A stretch of DNA of 64,000 nt from Leeuwenhoekiella aequorea (GTDB lineage: Bacteria; Bacteroidota; Bacteroidia; Flavobacteriales; Flavobacteriaceae), in contig NZ_QOVM01000005.1 of the NCBI RefSeq assembly GCF_004104375.1, forward strand, positions 1-64,000, given 5' to 3'. Of this stretch, positions 2,984-41,037 are shown piece after piece (within the stretch, counting starts at the first letter, position 1; each line of letters starts with the position of its first letter). The notes beneath the pieces were generated by a model. The model was not told the DNA's origin. It ran no database searches and saw only the letters and a program-made list of their open reading frames with translations. A program made the translations under genes and the position numbers.

Positions 2984-3730
2984 GAATGTCAAGAGCTTTC
3001 TTTAAAATAGAAAAAGCTGAATTAATTGAACAAAGATCCAATCGAAGTTTTGAATTTATCTATTTAGAAAACTGGCTCAATACTAAGGATAAAATTGCAA
3101 TCAGTTTAATGCTGCCAAAATCGAAGCAGGTCTATCAATCTCTCTATTTATTCCCCTTCTTTAACAATGTGTTGCCTAAAGGTATTAATAAACACGGGAT
3201 CTGTAAAAAAATGTATAATGATAAGATGATTATTTTGGGTTGTTGCCCAACAATGCATTAGGGAACTCTTGCCGAAGGCTAAGACTCTTATAGCTGGAAC
3301 TGTCTAAAACGCATGTTTACTATTTGGAAAGCGACACTCATCACTCCTTACGATTCCCCAAATGGTAAATATGACGAAAATCAAATCTTTAGAATTAATC
3401 AAAAGCGTATTTCCATATCGGGTGTTCATGAGAAGTTTTCAGTTCTTTTAAAAAAGAATAAGTTGCGACTTATTAAAGAAGGGGAGCAGGGAAATTATAT
3501 TTTAATGCCATTCCCAATGCTGCTAAACGCAGTGATCAAATGCCGGCTAACGAACACCTCAAGATGTAAATAGCACAGCAGGTGTATCAAATTGAAACTG
3601 CAGAGAACGCTTTGATATTTTTAAAAACGGGGGAGCAGGCCTATTATTGAAATTTCTTTTATCAATGAACTGCCCAAATGTACTACCTACAAGCCTATTA
3701 AATGCGATTTAAGCGTTTGAGCCCGGAACG
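2980..3730 (+). pseudogene. Decayed HipA/HipBST-like toxin (short N-subdomain plus kinase fragment)
   Basis: The first part (2980-3261) matches the HipA N-terminal subdomain: SLMLPKSKQVYQSLYLFPFF then NNVLPKG. A frame change near 3225 would restore DDYFGLL, the family's next motif. The second part (3313-3573) carries the kinase N-lobe pattern KRISISGVHEKFSVLL and GNYILMPFP, equivalent to ISGVQPKLS and YILKP. After another shift MPANEHLKM reads into a TAA, then IAQQVYQIETAENALIF and a TGA. The rest of the kinase, including the catalytic loop, is absent. Intact relatives phosphorylate a translation target such as glutamyl- or tryptophanyl-tRNA synthetase. Several frameshifts, stops and missing catalytic residues make this an inactive relic; it sits next to the boundary of the mobile element. 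Confidence 0.75.
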
Positions 3731-36905: not shown

Positions 36906-37121
36906 ATGAAAAATGTGATCACAATTTTTGCTTTAAGTTTTATAGCTTTCAATTCGGTTTCTTGTAGAGAAGAAAAAGAAACAGTAGTTGTAAAAGAAGT
37001 GCAGGTAGAAAATACATCTAGCGACCGTGAAGGCATATTAGAGCGTACAGCAAAAAAGGTGGATAACGAAGTAAATAAAGAGATTGACCAAAAAATAGAA
37101 ACAATCGGTGACGATAATTAA
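36906..37121 (+). CDS. Small acidic lipoprotein A (Cys-Arg-Glu family)
   Basis: 71 residues from ATG 36906; the upstream in-frame start at 36858 would spoil the signal peptide. Signal peptide MKNVITIFALSFIAFNSVS, then lipobox Cys at 20 followed by REEKETVVV. The mature part is highly charged with few hydrophobics and ends EIDQKIETIGDDN. Arg/Lys followed by acids immediately after the lipidated Cys resembles the Bacteroidota lipoprotein export signal for surface display. It is 10 bp ahead of lipoprotein B, so the two are one operon. Two further relatives lie 3.2-3.7 kb away beyond the DNA repair module. Confidence 0.65.
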   Translation: MKNVITIFALSFIAFNSVSCREEKETVVVKEVQVENTSSDREGILERTAKKVDNEVNKEIDQKIETIGDDN

Positions 37122-37131
37122 TTTATATACT

Positions 37132-37371
37132 ATGAAAAATCTAGGATTATTATCAATTCTTTTAGTAGCAACCCTTACATTCACTTCTTGTCGTGAGAAG
37201 ACAGAAAAAGAGAAACTTGTAGAAGAGATGAAAGAAGATGGTGCGGTTATCGAAGAAACTGTCGATGATGATGGTGACTACAAATTGAAAATGGAATCAG
37301 ACACAAAAGAGGTTAAAATAAAAGAAGACGCGGACGGCGACTCAAAGATTAAAGTTGACAACGATAACTAA
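37132..37371 (+). CDS. Small acidic lipoprotein B (Cys-Arg-Glu family)
   Basis: 79 residues from ATG 37132 (MKNLGLLSILLVATLTFTS, then Cys-Arg-Glu-Lys). After the lipobox the chain is nearly all charged: EKTEKEKLVEEMKEDG, then alternating acidic/Lys strands (DGDYKLKMESDTKEVKIKED, ADGDSKIKVDND). The DxDG-type spacing (DDDGDYKLK, DADGDSKIK) recalls calcium-binding loops but is not a complete EF-hand. It follows lipoprotein A by 10 bp and is closed by a strong terminator shared with the convergent repressor gene. Confidence 0.65.
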   Translation: MKNLGLLSILLVATLTFTSCREKTEKEKLVEEMKEDGAVIEETVDDDGDYKLKMESDTKEVKIKEDADGDSKIKVDNDN

Positions 37372-37384
37372 ATCTTAAATGCTT

Positions 37385-37429
37385 AAAATAAAAAAAGCCA
37401 CACATATAATGTGTGGCTTTTTTTATTTT
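37385..37429. terminator. Bidirectional terminator between lipoprotein B and the S24 repressor gene
   Basis: A 21-bp perfect stem (AAAATAAAAAAAGCCACACA...) with a 3-base loop; the right arm covers the stop codon of the repressor gene. Confidence 0.88.
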
Positions 37430-38190
37430 AAAGTGCGCATTTGATTTTTTAAATCTAGCATTCCTTGTTGTAATTCTCTAAGAAGATTGCTTTCTGATGG
37501 TGCATCTAAATGAAAAGTAAGCTTACTATTTACCTGCCAAAGTTCTTGTATATCACTTACCTGTACTTCAAAGGGGTGATATTCCTGATTAAGTGATATC
37601 AATAAGACTTTTGAAGGATCTGGAAGTTTTTGAAGTTTTTTTACAACTACAGCATCAGGCAATACAACAACATATACTTTATTATTGGTTGCTTCACCCA
37701 TATTTACAGTAGCTTTTCCTAATACCCAATCTTCAGGCATAAAATTAGGCATCATACTATCTCCTTCTATTTGAAAACCTCTATATGTAGCATTTCGGTA
37801 TTGTGGAAGTGGTAGGTCAAAAGCGGGCAATTGTTGATACCAATCTACATCTTGAACATTGTGAGGATAACCGGCAGCGGCTTTTTGATTAACCATTACC
37901 AGATTTTCATTGTCATTGATATCTACGGTAACTACTTTAGGACTTACATCACCTTTGCCGGCGTGAAGCAACTTCTGATTACTATACCCAAAAAGCCAGA
38001 GCGGATTAATGTTGTATAATCGTAAAAGTTCGGTTACAATATGACCAGAAAGTTTGGTGCGTCCTCGCTCTATATCTGCTGTAGAATTTTTAATACCTAA
38101 CGCTTCCGCAAATTCGGTTTGCGTTAGATTCTGTTCTTCACGTATTTGTTTGAAGCGGCGAACATCGCCTGTTACATCATTGATTCCCAT
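37423..38190 (-). CDS. XRE-type repressor with S24/LexA-like autoprotease domain
   Basis: 255 residues. N-terminal XRE helix-turn-helix (RFKQIREEQNLTQTEFAEAL then GIKNSTADIERGRTKLSG). A linker (~70-120) leads to the S24 fold with GDSMMPNFMPEDWV (catalytic Ser) and VVVKKLQKL (catalytic Lys). The cleavage site usual in CI/LexA (Ala-Gly) may be at the AAAGYPHN segment. Such proteins repress until damage-triggered RecA filaments stimulate self-cleavage. The gene is divergent from a radical-SAM putative DNA repair operon, with two identical 11-bp boxes in the 98-bp gap, so it is likely the local regulator. Phage-like origin is possible but no phage genes are nearby. Confidence 0.85.
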   Translation of the reverse strand: MGINDVTGDVRRFKQIREEQNLTQTEFAEALGIKNSTADIERGRTKLSGHIVTELLRLYNINPLWLFGYSNQKLLHAGKGDVSPKVVTVDINDNENLVMVNQKAAAGYPHNVQDVDWYQQLPAFDLPLPQYRNATYRGFQIEGDSMMPNFMPEDWVLGKATVNMGEATNNKVYVVVLPDAVVVKKLQKLPDPSKVLLISLNQEYHPFEVQVSDIQELWQVNSKLTFHLDAPSESNLLRELQQGMLDLKNQMRTLK

Positions 38191-38211
38191 ATTGTAAATG
38201 TACTATTATTT

Positions 38212-38245
38212 GGAAAAAATCCTAATTAAAGTTCGGAAAAAATCC
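38212..38245. promoter_or_regulatory. Two GGAAAAAATCC boxes, candidate S24-repressor operators
   Basis: Exact copies of GGAAAAAATCC at 38212-38222 and 38235-38245, 23 bp apart (about two helical turns). Each has GGA/TCC symmetry. A weaker related half-palindrome (AGGAAATTTTC) follows at 38253. The placement between the divergent repressor and radical-SAM genes is the natural position for shared operators. Confidence 0.6.
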
Positions 38246-38288
38246 TTTAAATAGGAAATTTTCTTTAAATTCGTAAAAATTCCACGCT

Positions 38289-39551
38289 ATGAATTTTGAA
38301 AGAATAAAAGAAAAATTATCCATACTTGCAGATGCGGCAAAGTATGACGTATCGTGCTCCAGTAGTGGTAGCAAACGTACAAACACAAATAAGGGATTAG
38401 GTGATAGTTCTGGTATGGGTATTTGCCATAGTTATACCGAAGATGGACGTTGTGTTTCCTTATTAAAAATACTACTTACAAATCATTGTATTTTTGATTG
38501 TGCATACTGTGTAAGTCGTAAAAACAATGATATAAAACGTGCTGCATTTAAAATTCAAGAGGTTGTAGATCTCACCATAAATTTTTACAGGCGCAACTAT
38601 ATTGAAGGGCTGTTTTTAAGCAGTGGTATATTTCATAATCCTGATTATACTATGGAGCGATTAGTTTCCATAGCAAAAAAACTGCGTTTAGAAGAAAATT
38701 TCAATGGCTATATTCATCTAAAATCTATACCAGGATGTAGCGATGAATTAATGCGCGAAGCTGGTTTATATGCAGACCGACTTTCTATAAATATTGAAAT
38801 TCCAACTGTTTCAGGTCTTAAATTACTTGCTCCAGAAAAAGATCATAAGGATTTTATTAAACCTATGGAAAAGGTGAAAAATGAGATCATTCAGTATAAA
38901 GCAGAGAAAAAGATCATCAAAAATACTCCGGTATATGCTCCCGCAGGACAAAGCACTCAAATGATTGTAGGCGCAACGGGAGAAAGTGACAAAGATATTA
39001 TGTATTCTGCTGTGCATTATTACAGCACTTATAATATGAAGCGGGTATACTATTCTGGATACGTACCGGTTTTAGAGGATAATAGATTACCTGCTCTAGG
39101 GACTGAGGTGCCTATGCTACGCGAAAACAGATTGTATCAAACAGATTGGTTATTGCGCTTTTATGGATTTGATGTACGGGAATTGCTAAATCATAATCAT
39201 CCTAATCTTGATATTGATATTGATCCTAAATTGAGTTGGGCTTTACGTAATATGCATATGTTTCCGGTAGATGTGAATACAGCAGATAAACAACTTTTAG
39301 CGCGTATTCCTGGTTTAGGAATGAAGTCTGTGCATAAAATTATAAATGCCAGAAAATACAGACGTCTTAATTGGGAGAATTTAAAAGCTATAGGCATAGC
39401 GATGAGTAGAGCTAAATATTTTATGGTTTGTAATTCATCAAATTTTGAAAGTAGAGATTTAGAACCCGAGCGTATTAAGAGTATGATATTACAATCCTCA
39501 CAAAGTAAATATCAGAAATTCTATAATCAGCAATTGTCTTTATTCAATTAA
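38289..39551 (+). CDS. Radical SAM putative DNA modification/repair protein (TIGR03916-like)
   Basis: 420 residues. The radical SAM iron-sulfur motif is LTNHCIFDCAYCVSRKNNDI (CxxxCxxC). The N-terminal SSGSKRTNTNKGLGDSSGMG and ICHSYTEDGRCVSLLKILL match the TIGR03916 family. The C-terminus has a helix-hairpin-helix (LLARIPGLGMKSVHKIINAR), a nonspecific DNA-binding motif shared with repair nucleases. The enzyme would generate 5'-deoxyadenosyl radicals on DNA, but the lesion or modification is not known. The stop codon abuts the ATG of the TIGR03915-like partner with no gap, and a LexA-like repressor lies divergently upstream. Confidence 0.9.
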   Translation: MNFERIKEKLSILADAAKYDVSCSSSGSKRTNTNKGLGDSSGMGICHSYTEDGRCVSLLKILLTNHCIFDCAYCVSRKNNDIKRAAFKIQEVVDLTINFYRRNYIEGLFLSSGIFHNPDYTMERLVSIAKKLRLEENFNGYIHLKSIPGCSDELMREAGLYADRLSINIEIPTVSGLKLLAPEKDHKDFIKPMEKVKNEIIQYKAEKKIIKNTPVYAPAGQSTQMIVGATGESDKDIMYSAVHYYSTYNMKRVYYSGYVPVLEDNRLPALGTEVPMLRENRLYQTDWLLRFYGFDVRELLNHNHPNLDIDIDPKLSWALRNMHMFPVDVNTADKQLLARIPGLGMKSVHKIINARKYRRLNWENLKAIGIAMSRAKYFMVCNSSNFESRDLEPERIKSMILQSSQSKYQKFYNQQLSLFN

Positions 39552-40301
39552 ATGAAAAAGCAGACATTAATATATGATGGGAGTTTTGAAGGCTTGCTAA
39601 CTGCTATTTTTCAAGTTTATGAGGAGCGCTTAAATGATGTATTTATAGTTGACGAGGTTCACTACGAACCCGATTTTTTTTCTGAACCAGTTACTGTATA
39701 TACAGATGATGGTAAGGCAAATAGAGTATGGGACAAACTTAAGGACTATAAAAATCTTAGTAAGTTGATTTATTGGTCATTTCTAAGCGAGTTTGATGAG
39801 CGTGAGCGATATATACTTGAAGCATTACACTATGTTTTAAAAACTCAAAATGAAAATGATTATGGGCACCCTGCTGTATTAATGCTTTCGCAACTTACCA
39901 AAAAAGTAGGAAGAGAAAAGCACAGAATGGAAGCCTTCGTGCGTTTTAAAAGAACTAGAGAGGATTTATATGTTTCTATTATAAGTCCAGATTTTAACGT
40001 CCTTCCTTTAATAGCTAAACACTTTAAAAATAGATATGCAGATCAGCAATTTGTAATATATGATACTAAGAGAGGGTATGGTCTTTTTTACAATTTAGAT
40101 TCAATAGCATTTATTGAGTTAGACTTTAATTCGAAAGAAGATTTAGAAAAAGCAATGCACGAAGAAGAAACTAATTACAATTTATTGTGGCAAAACTATT
40201 TTAGCAGTACAAATATTAAAAGCAGAGTTAATATGCGACTTCATAAGCAACATGTACCTAAGCGCTATTGGAAATACTTAAATGAGAAAAATCCGCTTTA
40301 A
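39552..40301 (+). CDS. TIGR03915/DUF4130-like putative DNA repair partner
   Basis: 249 residues. The N-terminus TLIYDGSFEGLLTAIFQVYE is the family signature; the centre has LTKKVGREKHRMEAFVRFKR and the C-terminus has FNLDSIAFIELDFNS-like strands and a uracil-DNA-glycosylase-flavoured layout. I recall this family as an obligate partner of TIGR03916 radical SAM proteins; the activity is not described to my knowledge. Gene start touches the upstream stop, so translational coupling is nearly certain. It precedes small lipoprotein C by 45 bp on the same strand. Confidence 0.88.
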   Translation: MKKQTLIYDGSFEGLLTAIFQVYEERLNDVFIVDEVHYEPDFFSEPVTVYTDDGKANRVWDKLKDYKNLSKLIYWSFLSEFDERERYILEALHYVLKTQNENDYGHPAVLMLSQLTKKVGREKHRMEAFVRFKRTREDLYVSIISPDFNVLPLIAKHFKNRYADQQFVIYDTKRGYGLFYNLDSIAFIELDFNSKEDLEKAMHEEETNYNLLWQNYFSSTNIKSRVNMRLHKQHVPKRYWKYLNEKNPL

Positions 40302-40346: not shown

Positions 40347-40565
40347 ATGAAACGATTATTATTAAGCTTGTTGTTTGTCGCTTTATTAAGTACAACCTAT
40401 TCTTGCAGAGAAACTACTCAAGAAAAAACTGAAGACGCTCTAGAGTCAATAGGAGAAGATATTGAAAACGGTGCAGAAAACGCCGGGGATGCTATACAGG
40501 AAGGAGCAGACGAACTAAATGATGAGATTCAAAGAAATGATGATGTTATGGATGATGATGCTTAA
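40347..40565 (+). CDS. Small acidic lipoprotein C (Cys-Arg-Glu family)
   Basis: 72 residues. Signal peptide MKRLLLSLLFVALLSTTYS then Cys-Arg-Glu-Thr-Thr. The mature chain is a repetitive acidic amphipathic helix (EKTEDALESIGEDIENGAEN, AGDAIQEGADELNDEI) with 7/11-residue periodicity and no basic cluster. It is 45 bp downstream of the TIGR03915-like gene on the same strand with no terminator between, so it may be cotranscribed with the repair pair. Very similar to lipoprotein D. Confidence 0.65.
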   Translation: MKRLLLSLLFVALLSTTYSCRETTQEKTEDALESIGEDIENGAENAGDAIQEGADELNDEIQRNDDVMDDDA

Positions 40566-40758
40566 TTATATCTTAATACAAAATCTGATTCTCTAAAATA
40601 TTTCTTTAACCACTAACGTAAACGTTGTCGCTTTGAAAAGTTGAGAATTTGCTGCAATTATGTTAATTGAATTGTTGTATTCCTTGCGATATTTTTATCA
40701 AAACTATAATTCGATAAAAAATTTAATATTTTTTATGATATTGTGATTTTAAATTATA

Positions 40759-40766
40759 TACTTTTG
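40759..40766 (+). promoter_or_regulatory. -7 element TACTTTTG before lipoprotein D
   Basis: Exact TANNTTTG match 35 bp before the ATG at 40801. A TTG lies at 40741, but the 15-base spacer is somewhat short for a Bacteroidota -33 element. Confidence 0.45.
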
Positions 40767-40800
40767 CGAGCAATTAACGCTAATTAAAATATTACCAATT

Positions 40801-41037
40801 ATGAAAAAATTAATTTTTAGTGCTTTCGCACTTTTACTAATGGTTTCTGTTTCTGCTTGTCGCGAAACTACTGAAGAGAAAACTGAAGATGCAATGGAAA
40901 ACGCTGCTGATGACATGGGTGATTCTATGGATGATGCTGGTGACGCTATAGAAGACGCTGCTGAAGATACAGGTGATGCTATCGAAGACGGAGCTCAAGA
41001 AGTAGAAGACGAAGTTGAAGGAAACGACGACATGTAA
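40801..41037 (+). CDS. Small acidic lipoprotein D (Cys-Arg-Glu family)
   Basis: 78 residues. Signal peptide MKKLIFSAFALLLMVSVSA then Cys-Arg-Glu-Thr-Thr-Glu-Glu. The mature part is almost entirely acidic with a repeated DAxEDAxEDTG unit (DDAGDAIEDAAEDTGDAIED), suggesting an amphipathic helix with one negative face. Clear paralog of lipoprotein C (same CRETTxEKTEDAxE start). It has its own promoter-like element and a terminator shared with the convergent fabD. Function unknown. Confidence 0.7.
   Translation: MKKLIFSAFALLLMVSVSACRETTEEKTEDAMENAADDMGDSMDDAGDAIEDAAEDTGDAIEDGAQEVEDEVEGNDDM

Follow-up and report, generated by a model that had tools for sequence, protein, structure and literature searches.

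A GGA-N5-TCC box array between a LexA-like repressor gene and a radical-SAM/DUF4130 gene pair in Leeuwenhoekiella aequorea

The best explanation of the divergent locus described here, with a probability of about 0.87, is that a LexA array controls its own gene and a radical-SAM/DUF4130 operon within the general SOS response. The locus lies in the window, the 64-kb stretch of DNA that was analysed. The evidence consists of the gene content, the operator array between the divergent genes, the covariation of this array with the repressor in the family, and the sites at other SOS promoters of the same genome.

Locus layout and operator array

The repressor gene is divergent from the radical-SAM/HhH gene across an intergenic gap of 98 bp (38191-38288), and the ATG of the TIGR03915/DUF4130 gene directly abuts the TAA of the radical-SAM gene. 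The ORF calls and the family matches agree with the sequence-only reading, which had described an S24 repressor, a radical-SAM/HhH protein and a TIGR03915-like partner with stop touching start. The features are as follows.

37390..37424, no strand: hairpin with an A-run and a T-run (direct sequence reading)
37423..38190, minus strand: non-canonical LexA with CI-type HTH and S24, 255 aa (domain matches and residue conservation; class after PMC8565304)
38195..38202, minus strand: -7-like element of the repressor promoter, degenerate, TACATTTA against TAnnTTTG (sequence reading)
38212..38222, no strand: putative operator A, GGAAAAAATCC (GGA-N5-TCC), exact (sequence and ortholog comparison)
38235..38245, no strand: putative operator B, GGAAAAAATCC, exact, 23 bp from A start to start (ortholog comparison)
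38254..38264, no strand: putative operator C, GGAAATTTTCT, degenerate with one arm mismatch (several other loci have an exact third box here)
38266..38273, plus strand: -7-like element of the radical-SAM promoter, degenerate, TAAATTCG against TAnnTTTG (sequence reading)
38273..38283, no strand: putative operator D, GTAAAAATTCC, degenerate with one arm mismatch (exact fourth box in loci L036-L038)
38289..39551, plus strand: TIGR03916 radical-SAM/HhH protein, 420 aa (profile matches and alignment)
39552..40301, plus strand: TIGR03915/DUF4130 protein, 249 aa (profiles; predicted DHH/DHHA1-like fold)

The hairpin, which lies between the repressor gene and a small lipoprotein gene upstream, is likely a terminator for both directions. 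The two exact boxes that had been noted in the gap, 23 bp apart, were found again. Rather than twin operators, the array comprises four places: the degenerate boxes C and D extend it in 19-bp steps, and L036-L038 have four exact boxes. Both gap promoters were compared with the -7 consensus TAnnTTTG. On the repressor strand, an exact match is present in 13 of the 19 gaps with an adjacent repressor gene (the window's own gap is a miss), versus 1.5 in resampled sequences; on the radical-SAM strand it is present, close to the position of the element in the window, in 17 of them (the misses are the own gap and L010), versus 1.8.

The covariation sample covers 30 of the 33 family genomes with a radical-SAM match, including the own genome; the other three have no locus. 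The radical-SAM gene is preceded by at least two boxes in 19/19 loci with the repressor adjacent (own included), in 2/5 loci with the repressor elsewhere in the genome, and in 0/6 loci without a strong repressor match, where five genomes with a weak S24 match only (E 3e-24 to 5e-25; 3e-27 to 9e-26) were scored as repressor-less and G045 and G091 among them belong to the six loci. In resampled sequences the figure was 0.00-0.07 per gap. Absence of the box from orthologous gaps, which the sequence-only reading had named as a refutation, was not seen in any of the 19 gaps with the repressor adjacent, and this comparative evidence supports a role of the boxes as operators. One of the five genomes in which the repressor lies elsewhere, G063, lacks a box upstream of its radical-SAM gene. 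Two of these five show the order repressor, boxes, and then dinB-like, dnaE2-like, radical-SAM and DUF4130 genes (names by reading); one of the two also has an SRAP-like gene and a small ORF before the dinB-like gene.

The radical-SAM protein and its DUF4130 partner

The radical-SAM protein scored 668.8 bits against TIGR03916 (cut-off 343.5) and also matched Radical_SAM and HHH_3; its gene is presumably of the COG4277 type. The CxxxCxxC motif (C67/C71/C74) is present in 78/78 rows, and C23, C46 and C55 are also invariant, giving six invariant cysteines in a set that counts at least G001 and G125 twice. This set is composed of 58 of 62 loci and 20 rows of A2, namely the window protein and 19 of 24 full-length radical-SAM ORFs, with the 78-aa remnant L095 left out. 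The HhH is located at about residues 327-356. The structure model (pLDDT 49.9) was discarded as too poor, and the search of solved structures by sequence returned RuvA twice, weakly (E 0.009 and E 0.036). The spore photoproduct lyase SplB, a radical-SAM DNA repair enzyme, shares the CxxxCxxC motif; the TIGR03916 protein has in addition the HhH domain and the three further invariant cysteines C23, C46 and C55. According to PMC8565304, SplB is SOS-regulated in several species.

The partner scored 253.2 bits against TIGR03915 (cut-off 112.25) and 165.1 bits against PF13566 (DUF4130; cut-off 27), and TIGR03915 was found in 96 of 296 genomes sampled across the phylum. Its structure model reached a pLDDT of 85.5. 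The best Foldseek hit was to DHH proteins (E 1.2e-4, TM 0.38, rmsd 10), and the best DHH matches had TM-scores of 0.38-0.42 with rmsd 7.7-10. VIA, which realigned Foldseek's candidates only, gave Z up to 8.9 and rmsd 5.0 over 192 residues. The predicted fold over residues 1 to about 206 resembles, at moderate scores, the DHH/DHHA1 superfamily (RecJ, PAP phosphatase, PggH, Cdc45); unlike that superfamily, the partner has neither the DHH triad nor a sequence-profile signal. The hhalign comparison with RecJ or NrnA showed no signal (probability 0.1%), and the NrnA-RecJ control was moderate (E 2e-4, 45%); a single chance-level row (E 0.31) was returned by the search of solved structures by sequence. 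The model weakly suggests a fold resembling DHH proteins such as RecJ and PAP phosphatase, without profile support.

An active phosphoesterase or nuclease of the DHH type would fit the predicted-fold match to RecJ, PAP phosphatase and PggH, and also the motif-I-like YDGSFDG segment, in which D9 and G14 are kept in 53/53 and Y8 in 51/53 DUF4130 sequences. It is nevertheless improbable: the DHH triad is absent from the columns with at least 95% conservation in these 53 sequences, all 53 have Ser/Thr where the second motif-I Asp would lie (as placed by the hhalign alignment, P = 0.78), and only about 206 residues of the model could be aligned. The 53 sequences are 25 of the set A1, 26 of 30 loci (the best 30 of the 96 matching genomes), and L182 and L183; the fusion L181 was dropped, and L162, L166, L167 and L172 were left out because of their ORF length, their extraction or a stop within the frame. 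The DUF4130 of L104 could not be delimited. In seven genomes without the radical-SAM gene, DUF4130 persists behind operators and has lost residues kept in paired relatives, as judged at 47 positions; these were defined on paired-type sequences, including some from family members, a choice that tilts the comparison towards the paired set. All seven orphans keep Y8, D9 and G14, a further point for an active enzyme.

The pair could also be a uracil-DNA glycosylase (UDG) operon. PMC8565304 describes COG1573-COG4277 as a 'UDG base excision repair' operon, which likewise has a COG4277-type radical-SAM/HhH gene and a partner under SOS control; and TIGR03916 and DUF4130 are also neighbours on alphaproteobacterial plasmids, for example in Paracoccus yeei, where a UdgX-annotated protein of 489 aa with a DUF4130 part lies beside the radical-SAM gene. 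The partner in the window, in contrast, has 249 aa and is DUF4130 alone. No UDG domain was found in it, nor, at E <= 10, in its 24 relatives in the alignment A1, and the two UDG-superfamily matches of the own genome (frames of 195 and 232 aa) are on other contigs. This explanation has therefore little probability, and the label 'UDG repair operon' does not suit the proteins that were tested. In one genome of the phylum, G373, DUF4130 lies in a frame of 478 aa. The pair had been described as having no known reaction, and the searchable literature, with most subscription papers outside it, indeed yielded no description of it and nothing on TIGR03916, TIGR03915, or UdgX with radical SAM, while DUF4130 and COG4277 gave one paper each.

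The repressor and its sites across the genome

The repressor matched HTH_3 (PF01381) at 42.0 bits and Peptidase_S24 at 46.5 bits; the canonical LexA DNA-binding domain was not matched at E <= 0.1. Residues A106, G107, S145 and K184 are each kept in 67/67 aligned rows, in which the window protein is counted twice (as itself and as L039). These are the predicted cleavage site (A106-G107) and the predicted catalytic residues (S145 and K184), and the invariant Ala-Gly, Ser and Lys bear out the earlier term 'LexA-like'.

The published GGA-N5-TCC motif and its non-canonical Bacteroidetes LexA class come from PMC8565304 (2021). In that paper, the group likewise has a CI-type HTH with S24, Ala-Gly and Ser-Lys, and sites at its own promoter, recA, dinB, umuDC and a DnaQ/GIY-YIG exonuclease. 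The repressor class was studied there by EMSA, site mutagenesis and RT-qPCR. For relatives, it is established that the repressor binds GGA-N5-TCC and that mitomycin induces SOS genes; the boxed-class recA of S. agarivorans, however, was not induced by mitomycin C. SOS control of a COG4277 operon was predicted. The novelty of the circuit, implied by the sequence-only reading, is not supported as regards class, motif and predicted operon control. The window adds no new class; what is described here is the divergent gap with its four places beside the radical-SAM/DUF4130 pair, an arrangement not mentioned in the text of PMC8565304 that was consulted. The repressor looks like the bacterium's own SOS master switch, of a kind already described in its phylum.

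By count alone, no enrichment of the box was seen in the 3.46-Mb genome against reversed-pattern controls: the exact 11-mer GGAAAAAATCC has 9 matches (7 for the reversed pattern), tandem GGA-N5-TCC pairs within 25 bp occur at 3 places (2), and WGGAW5TCCW has 29 matches (39). The signal beyond chance is one of position and conservation, because all three tandem places are at promoters of SOS-type genes and the orthologous gaps keep their boxes. Among the 29 WGGAW5TCCW matches, 20 are within ORFs (of at least 120 aa) and 9 outside. Seven of these nine fall at promoters of SOS type: two at recA and one each at dinB, umuDC, the DnaQ/GIY-YIG exonuclease, a UvrD helicase gene (with a Cho-like gene in divergent orientation) and the gap of the window, six promoters in all.

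These sites also bear on the idea, put forward in the sequence-only reading, of a repressor dedicated solely to the neighbouring repair pair. Divergent adjacency in 19/30 loci with the radical-SAM gene (own included) would suit it. However, boxes also precede recA, umuDC, dinB, the exonuclease and the UvrD helicase in the same genome, so the repressor is not dedicated, and the idea was rejected as very improbable. The family distribution points the same way: 54 of 149 genomes match the repressor strongly (E <= 3e-69) and 33 match TIGR03916, and 30 of the 54 are without a TIGR03916 match. It is hardly credible that the repressor is a captured prophage repressor, with phage operators and a prophage remnant around it, for although the CI-type HTH with S24 and the phage origin proposed for the class in PMC8565304 speak for it, the repressor is single-copy in 58 of the 59 family genomes matching at E <= 1e-20, its sites are at cellular SOS genes, and no relatives of the pair were confirmed in viral contigs by two scans with exact-peptide seeds, which reach close relatives only.

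Proposed mechanism and its meaning

The LexA array within the general SOS response is the preferred explanation, and the radical-SAM/DUF4130 pair is very probably under the control of the repressor. Points against this explanation are the box counts, which do not exceed those of the reversed patterns, the degenerate -7 elements and boxes C and D of the window, the uninduced recA of S. agarivorans, and the missing box in G063. LexA dimers would occupy as many as four GGA-N5-TCC-like sites that lie between the two promoters and on them; the repressor would thereby limit expression of its own gene and shut off the radical-SAM/DUF4130 operon. After DNA damage, RecA loaded on single strands would drive self-cleavage of the repressor at A106-G107. 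Both genes might then be derepressed together with umuDC, dinB, recA, the exonuclease and the UvrD helicase, and the pair may act on damaged or error-prone-synthesised DNA. The term 'damage-inducible repair pair' remains the best reading; we infer that RecA drives the cleavage of this repressor and that this operon is derepressed, and likewise everything that concerns the chemistry of the pair.

Regarding this chemistry, it is tentatively suggested that the radical-SAM protein, which its HhH would hold on DNA, performs radical repair or modification of a base or sugar; DUF4130 might be a DNA-presenting, probably non-hydrolytic subunit of DHH fold that docks on this enzyme via the conserved C-terminal and REKHR segments. 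A more detailed proposal is rather unlikely as a whole. It takes DUF4130 as a Cdc45-like, catalytically reduced DHH-fold subunit presenting DNA to a two-cluster radical-SAM repair enzyme, TIGR03916 with its three extra invariant cysteines, with an SOS-induced lesion reversal that would be unlike SplB, would need no glycosylase, and would be linked to the dinB-dnaE2 mutasome. In some flavobacteria that lost the enzyme, the DHH-like protein might survive under LexA control and shed its partner-serving residues.

What had been guessed to be a dedicated circuit is, in the preferred explanation, one case of the SOS system published for the Bacteroidetes, backed by sites in its own genome and a phylogenetic control. 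The switch is ordinary; the radical-SAM/DUF4130 pair is the less ordinary part. The possible DHH-like fold of DUF4130, the six invariant cysteines and the natural loss series offer testable handles on it.

The repressor gene and the divergent gene pair

The locus comprises a repressor gene, a short gap and a gene pair on the opposite strand:

37423-38190, minus strand: repressor, 255 aa
38191-38288: gap of 98 bp; box places 1 and 2 are exact GGA-N5-TCC (two copies of the 11-mer GGAAAAAATCC)
38254 and 38273, within the gap: box places 3 and 4, one mismatch each
38289-39551, plus strand: radical-SAM gene, 420 aa
39552-40301, plus strand: DUF4130 gene, 249 aa

The three reading frames, the gap length, the abutting stop and start of the pair and the two exact boxes were all as the sequence-only reading had given them. 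A domain search of the repressor showed a CI-type helix-turn-helix and an S24 peptidase; its nearest named relatives are nine Leeuwenhoekiella records (84 to 92% identity). The residues Ala106-Gly107, Ser145 and Lys184 were kept in 67 of 67 aligned rows (window protein counted twice), and they are shared with the GGA-N5-TCC LexA proteins of PMC8565304. The radical-SAM protein scored 668.8 bits against TIGR03916 and carries Radical_SAM and helix-hairpin-helix domains; its partner scored 253.2 bits against TIGR03915/DUF4130. Six cysteines, namely the CxxxCxxC triad plus C23, C46 and C55, were invariant in 78 of 78 radical-SAM rows (53 to 100% identity to the window protein, some genomes in twice). 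It is a fair inference from this conservation that the extra cysteines may hold a second cluster or metal site.

Small acidic lipoproteins (SCRE-type lipobox, D/E-rich) are encoded on either side, at about 36906-37371 and 40347-41037, and by a rough filter at least one was found in 39 of 66 repressor loci. The genes at 40347 and 40801 had no Pfam family above its cut-off, and the former, the only one scanned in NCBIfam, had none there either.

Predicted operators and SOS regulon

Comparison of the gap with those of relatives showed that the two exact boxes are part of a longer array, in which all four boxes are exact in three loci (L036-L038). Among the 19 repressor-adjacent loci, own included, 30 of 34 spacings between GGA-N5-TCC boxes were 22-23 or 18-19 bp; of the others, one measured 20 bp and three 40-42 bp. 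TAnnTTTG is the -7 element of Bacteroidetes promoters. Exact copies were found in 17 of the 19 gaps on the radical-SAM strand and in 13 on the repressor strand, against 1.8 and 1.5 expected in resampled sequences. The window gap has no exact copy on either strand, and its two nearest sequences are each one base off. As read from these motifs, the gap is a pair of putative divergent promoters with candidate operators between and over both.

A search of 149 family genomes gave 33 with the radical-SAM gene; in 30 of these, exact boxes were counted in the 180 bp 5' of its start. At least two boxes were present in 19/19 genomes with the repressor adjacent, in 2/5 with it elsewhere, and in 0/6 without a strong repressor match; a weak S24 match exists in two of these six. 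The expectation from resampled sequences was 0.00 to 0.07 boxes per gap. Loss of the boxes from orthologous gaps, named by the sequence-only reading as the outcome against it, was not seen in any repressor-adjacent gap. Among genomes with the repressor elsewhere, G111 and G010 carry the radical-SAM gene late in a co-directed run starting at the repressor's boxed promoter. Its order is dinB-dnaE2-radicalSAM-DUF4130, preceded in G010 by an SRAP-like gene and a small frame (names by reading translations). In G100 and G087 the repressor is far off and the radical-SAM gene is preceded by its own two boxes; G063 has none.

In the 3.46-Mb genome, tandem GGA-N5-TCC pairs within 25 bp occur at three places (two in the reversed control): the window gap, 5' of umuD-umuC and 5' of a DnaQ/GIY-YIG exonuclease. 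The single site WGGAW5TCCW was not enriched by count in this genome (29 matches vs 39 for the reversed control). Twenty matches lie within reading frames and nine outside, of which seven mark six SOS-type promoters: recA (two sites), dinB, umuDC, the exonuclease, the UvrD helicase and the window gap. The other two lie in an intergenic repeat and over a gene end. In contig C1 (about 20960; L108, 1490-1900), one copy of an intergenic tandem repeat of about 130 bp holds a box-like sequence by chance. In contig C2 (203000-210000, L136), a GGA-N5-TCC box lies in the gap from which the UvrD helicase gene and a Cho-like GIY-YIG gene diverge, with a DASH-type cryptochrome next after the latter; this locus is possibly a light-repair branch of the SOS regulon.

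Because boxes occur at six SOS-type promoters of its own genome, we conclude that the predicted role of the repressor is that of a global SOS repressor, and the word "dedicated" in the earlier reading has to be dropped. Of 149 family genomes, 54 gave a strong repressor match, and TIGR03916 was not matched in 30 of these 54.

A 2021 paper on Bacteroidetes (PMC8565304) describes S24 proteins with a CI-type N-terminus that act as LexA, one group of which, mainly in Flavobacteriaceae, binds GGA-N5-TCC. Binding by the S. agarivorans repressor was shown by EMSA with arm mutations, and mitomycin induced the SOS genes in RT-qPCR, except S. agarivorans recA. The regulon predicted there includes dinB, umuDC, recA, a GIY-YIG exonuclease (COG0847) and an operon of two genes (COG1573-COG4277) that the paper regards as a putative uracil-DNA glycosylase repair system; the regulation of COG4277 is likewise a prediction. 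Since repressor class, motif and predicted regulon are described there, the regulatory core would be a further member of that system, and comparative support that the circuit belongs to it is good.

The DUF4130 partner

PMC3765255 presents DUF4130 as a predicted mutagenesis-related enzyme linked with SplB-like radical SAM proteins and uracil-DNA glycosylases. Domain search of the window protein matched no UDG domain, and at E up to 10 the 24 other aligned proteins had none either; the label "UDG repair operon" is unfit for the proteins tested. The open reading frame is 252 to 270 aa in 26 of the best 30 phylum loci. In G373 (contig C1, about 402739-403605) the DUF4130 match lies in two pieces inside a 478-aa open frame (usual length 250-270 aa). 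UdgX-annotated proteins with DUF4130 are present on alphaproteobacterial plasmids. For example, on Paracoccus yeei plasmid NZ_CP044080.1 (L181) a TIGR03916-type gene directly adjoins the gene downstream of it, whose 489-aa product is annotated as UdgX and matches DUF4130 in its N-terminal half.

The structure model (pLDDT 85.5, pTM 0.78, 25 aligned sequences) gave three structural matches at E <= 0.001, PAP phosphatase (1.2e-4, 2.2e-4) and PggH (9e-4), all of the DHH superfamily, with TM-scores of only 0.38-0.39 and rmsd of 7.7-10. Realignment of residues 1 to about 206 gave Z 8.9 for PAP phosphatase (rmsd 5.0, 192 residues), 8.2 for RecJ and 7.5 for replisome-complex chains that we take to be Cdc45; values below 8 may reflect a common arrangement alone, as the tool warns. 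The first 24 realigned rows, which we take, in part by their titles, to be all DHH-type, weigh against that reading. Profile support was absent: hhalign gave 0.1% for DUF4130 against RecJ and NrnA, vs 45% (E 2e-4) for the control NrnA against RecJ. No DHH triad is conserved in the DUF4130 alignment. We read the modelled protein as DHH-like in fold and probably not a working DHH hydrolase.

Orphan DUF4130 genes

In seven of 30 repressor loci examined (L137-L143), a boxed gap leads into a DUF4130 gene without an adjoining radical-SAM gene, and all seven genomes fall outside the 33, of 149 searched, in which TIGR03916 was matched. At 47 reference positions with at least 95% conservation in a wide DUF4130 set, defined on paired-type sequences, 29 paired family members kept 45 to 47 vs 15 to 37 in the orphans. 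Losses were heaviest at the REKHR segment and the C-terminal segment (R-x-N, LH, H-x-P-x-R-Y-W), the latter scored lost in L141 and L143, which end at 219 aa; others were scattered. Y8, D9 and G14 were retained in all seven. The pattern fits a DUF4130 protein with two roles, one linked to the radical-SAM partner; relaxed selection by itself would lose residues in orphans too, and the seven may be a single lineage. In L095 (uncultured Aquimarina sp. 2-328, 3207-3440), the radical-SAM frame is down to 78 aa and the downstream DUF4130 frame is retained.

The observations of the sequence-only reading stand and its interpretation was right in part; the remaining interest is the reaction of the radical-SAM/DUF4130 pair.
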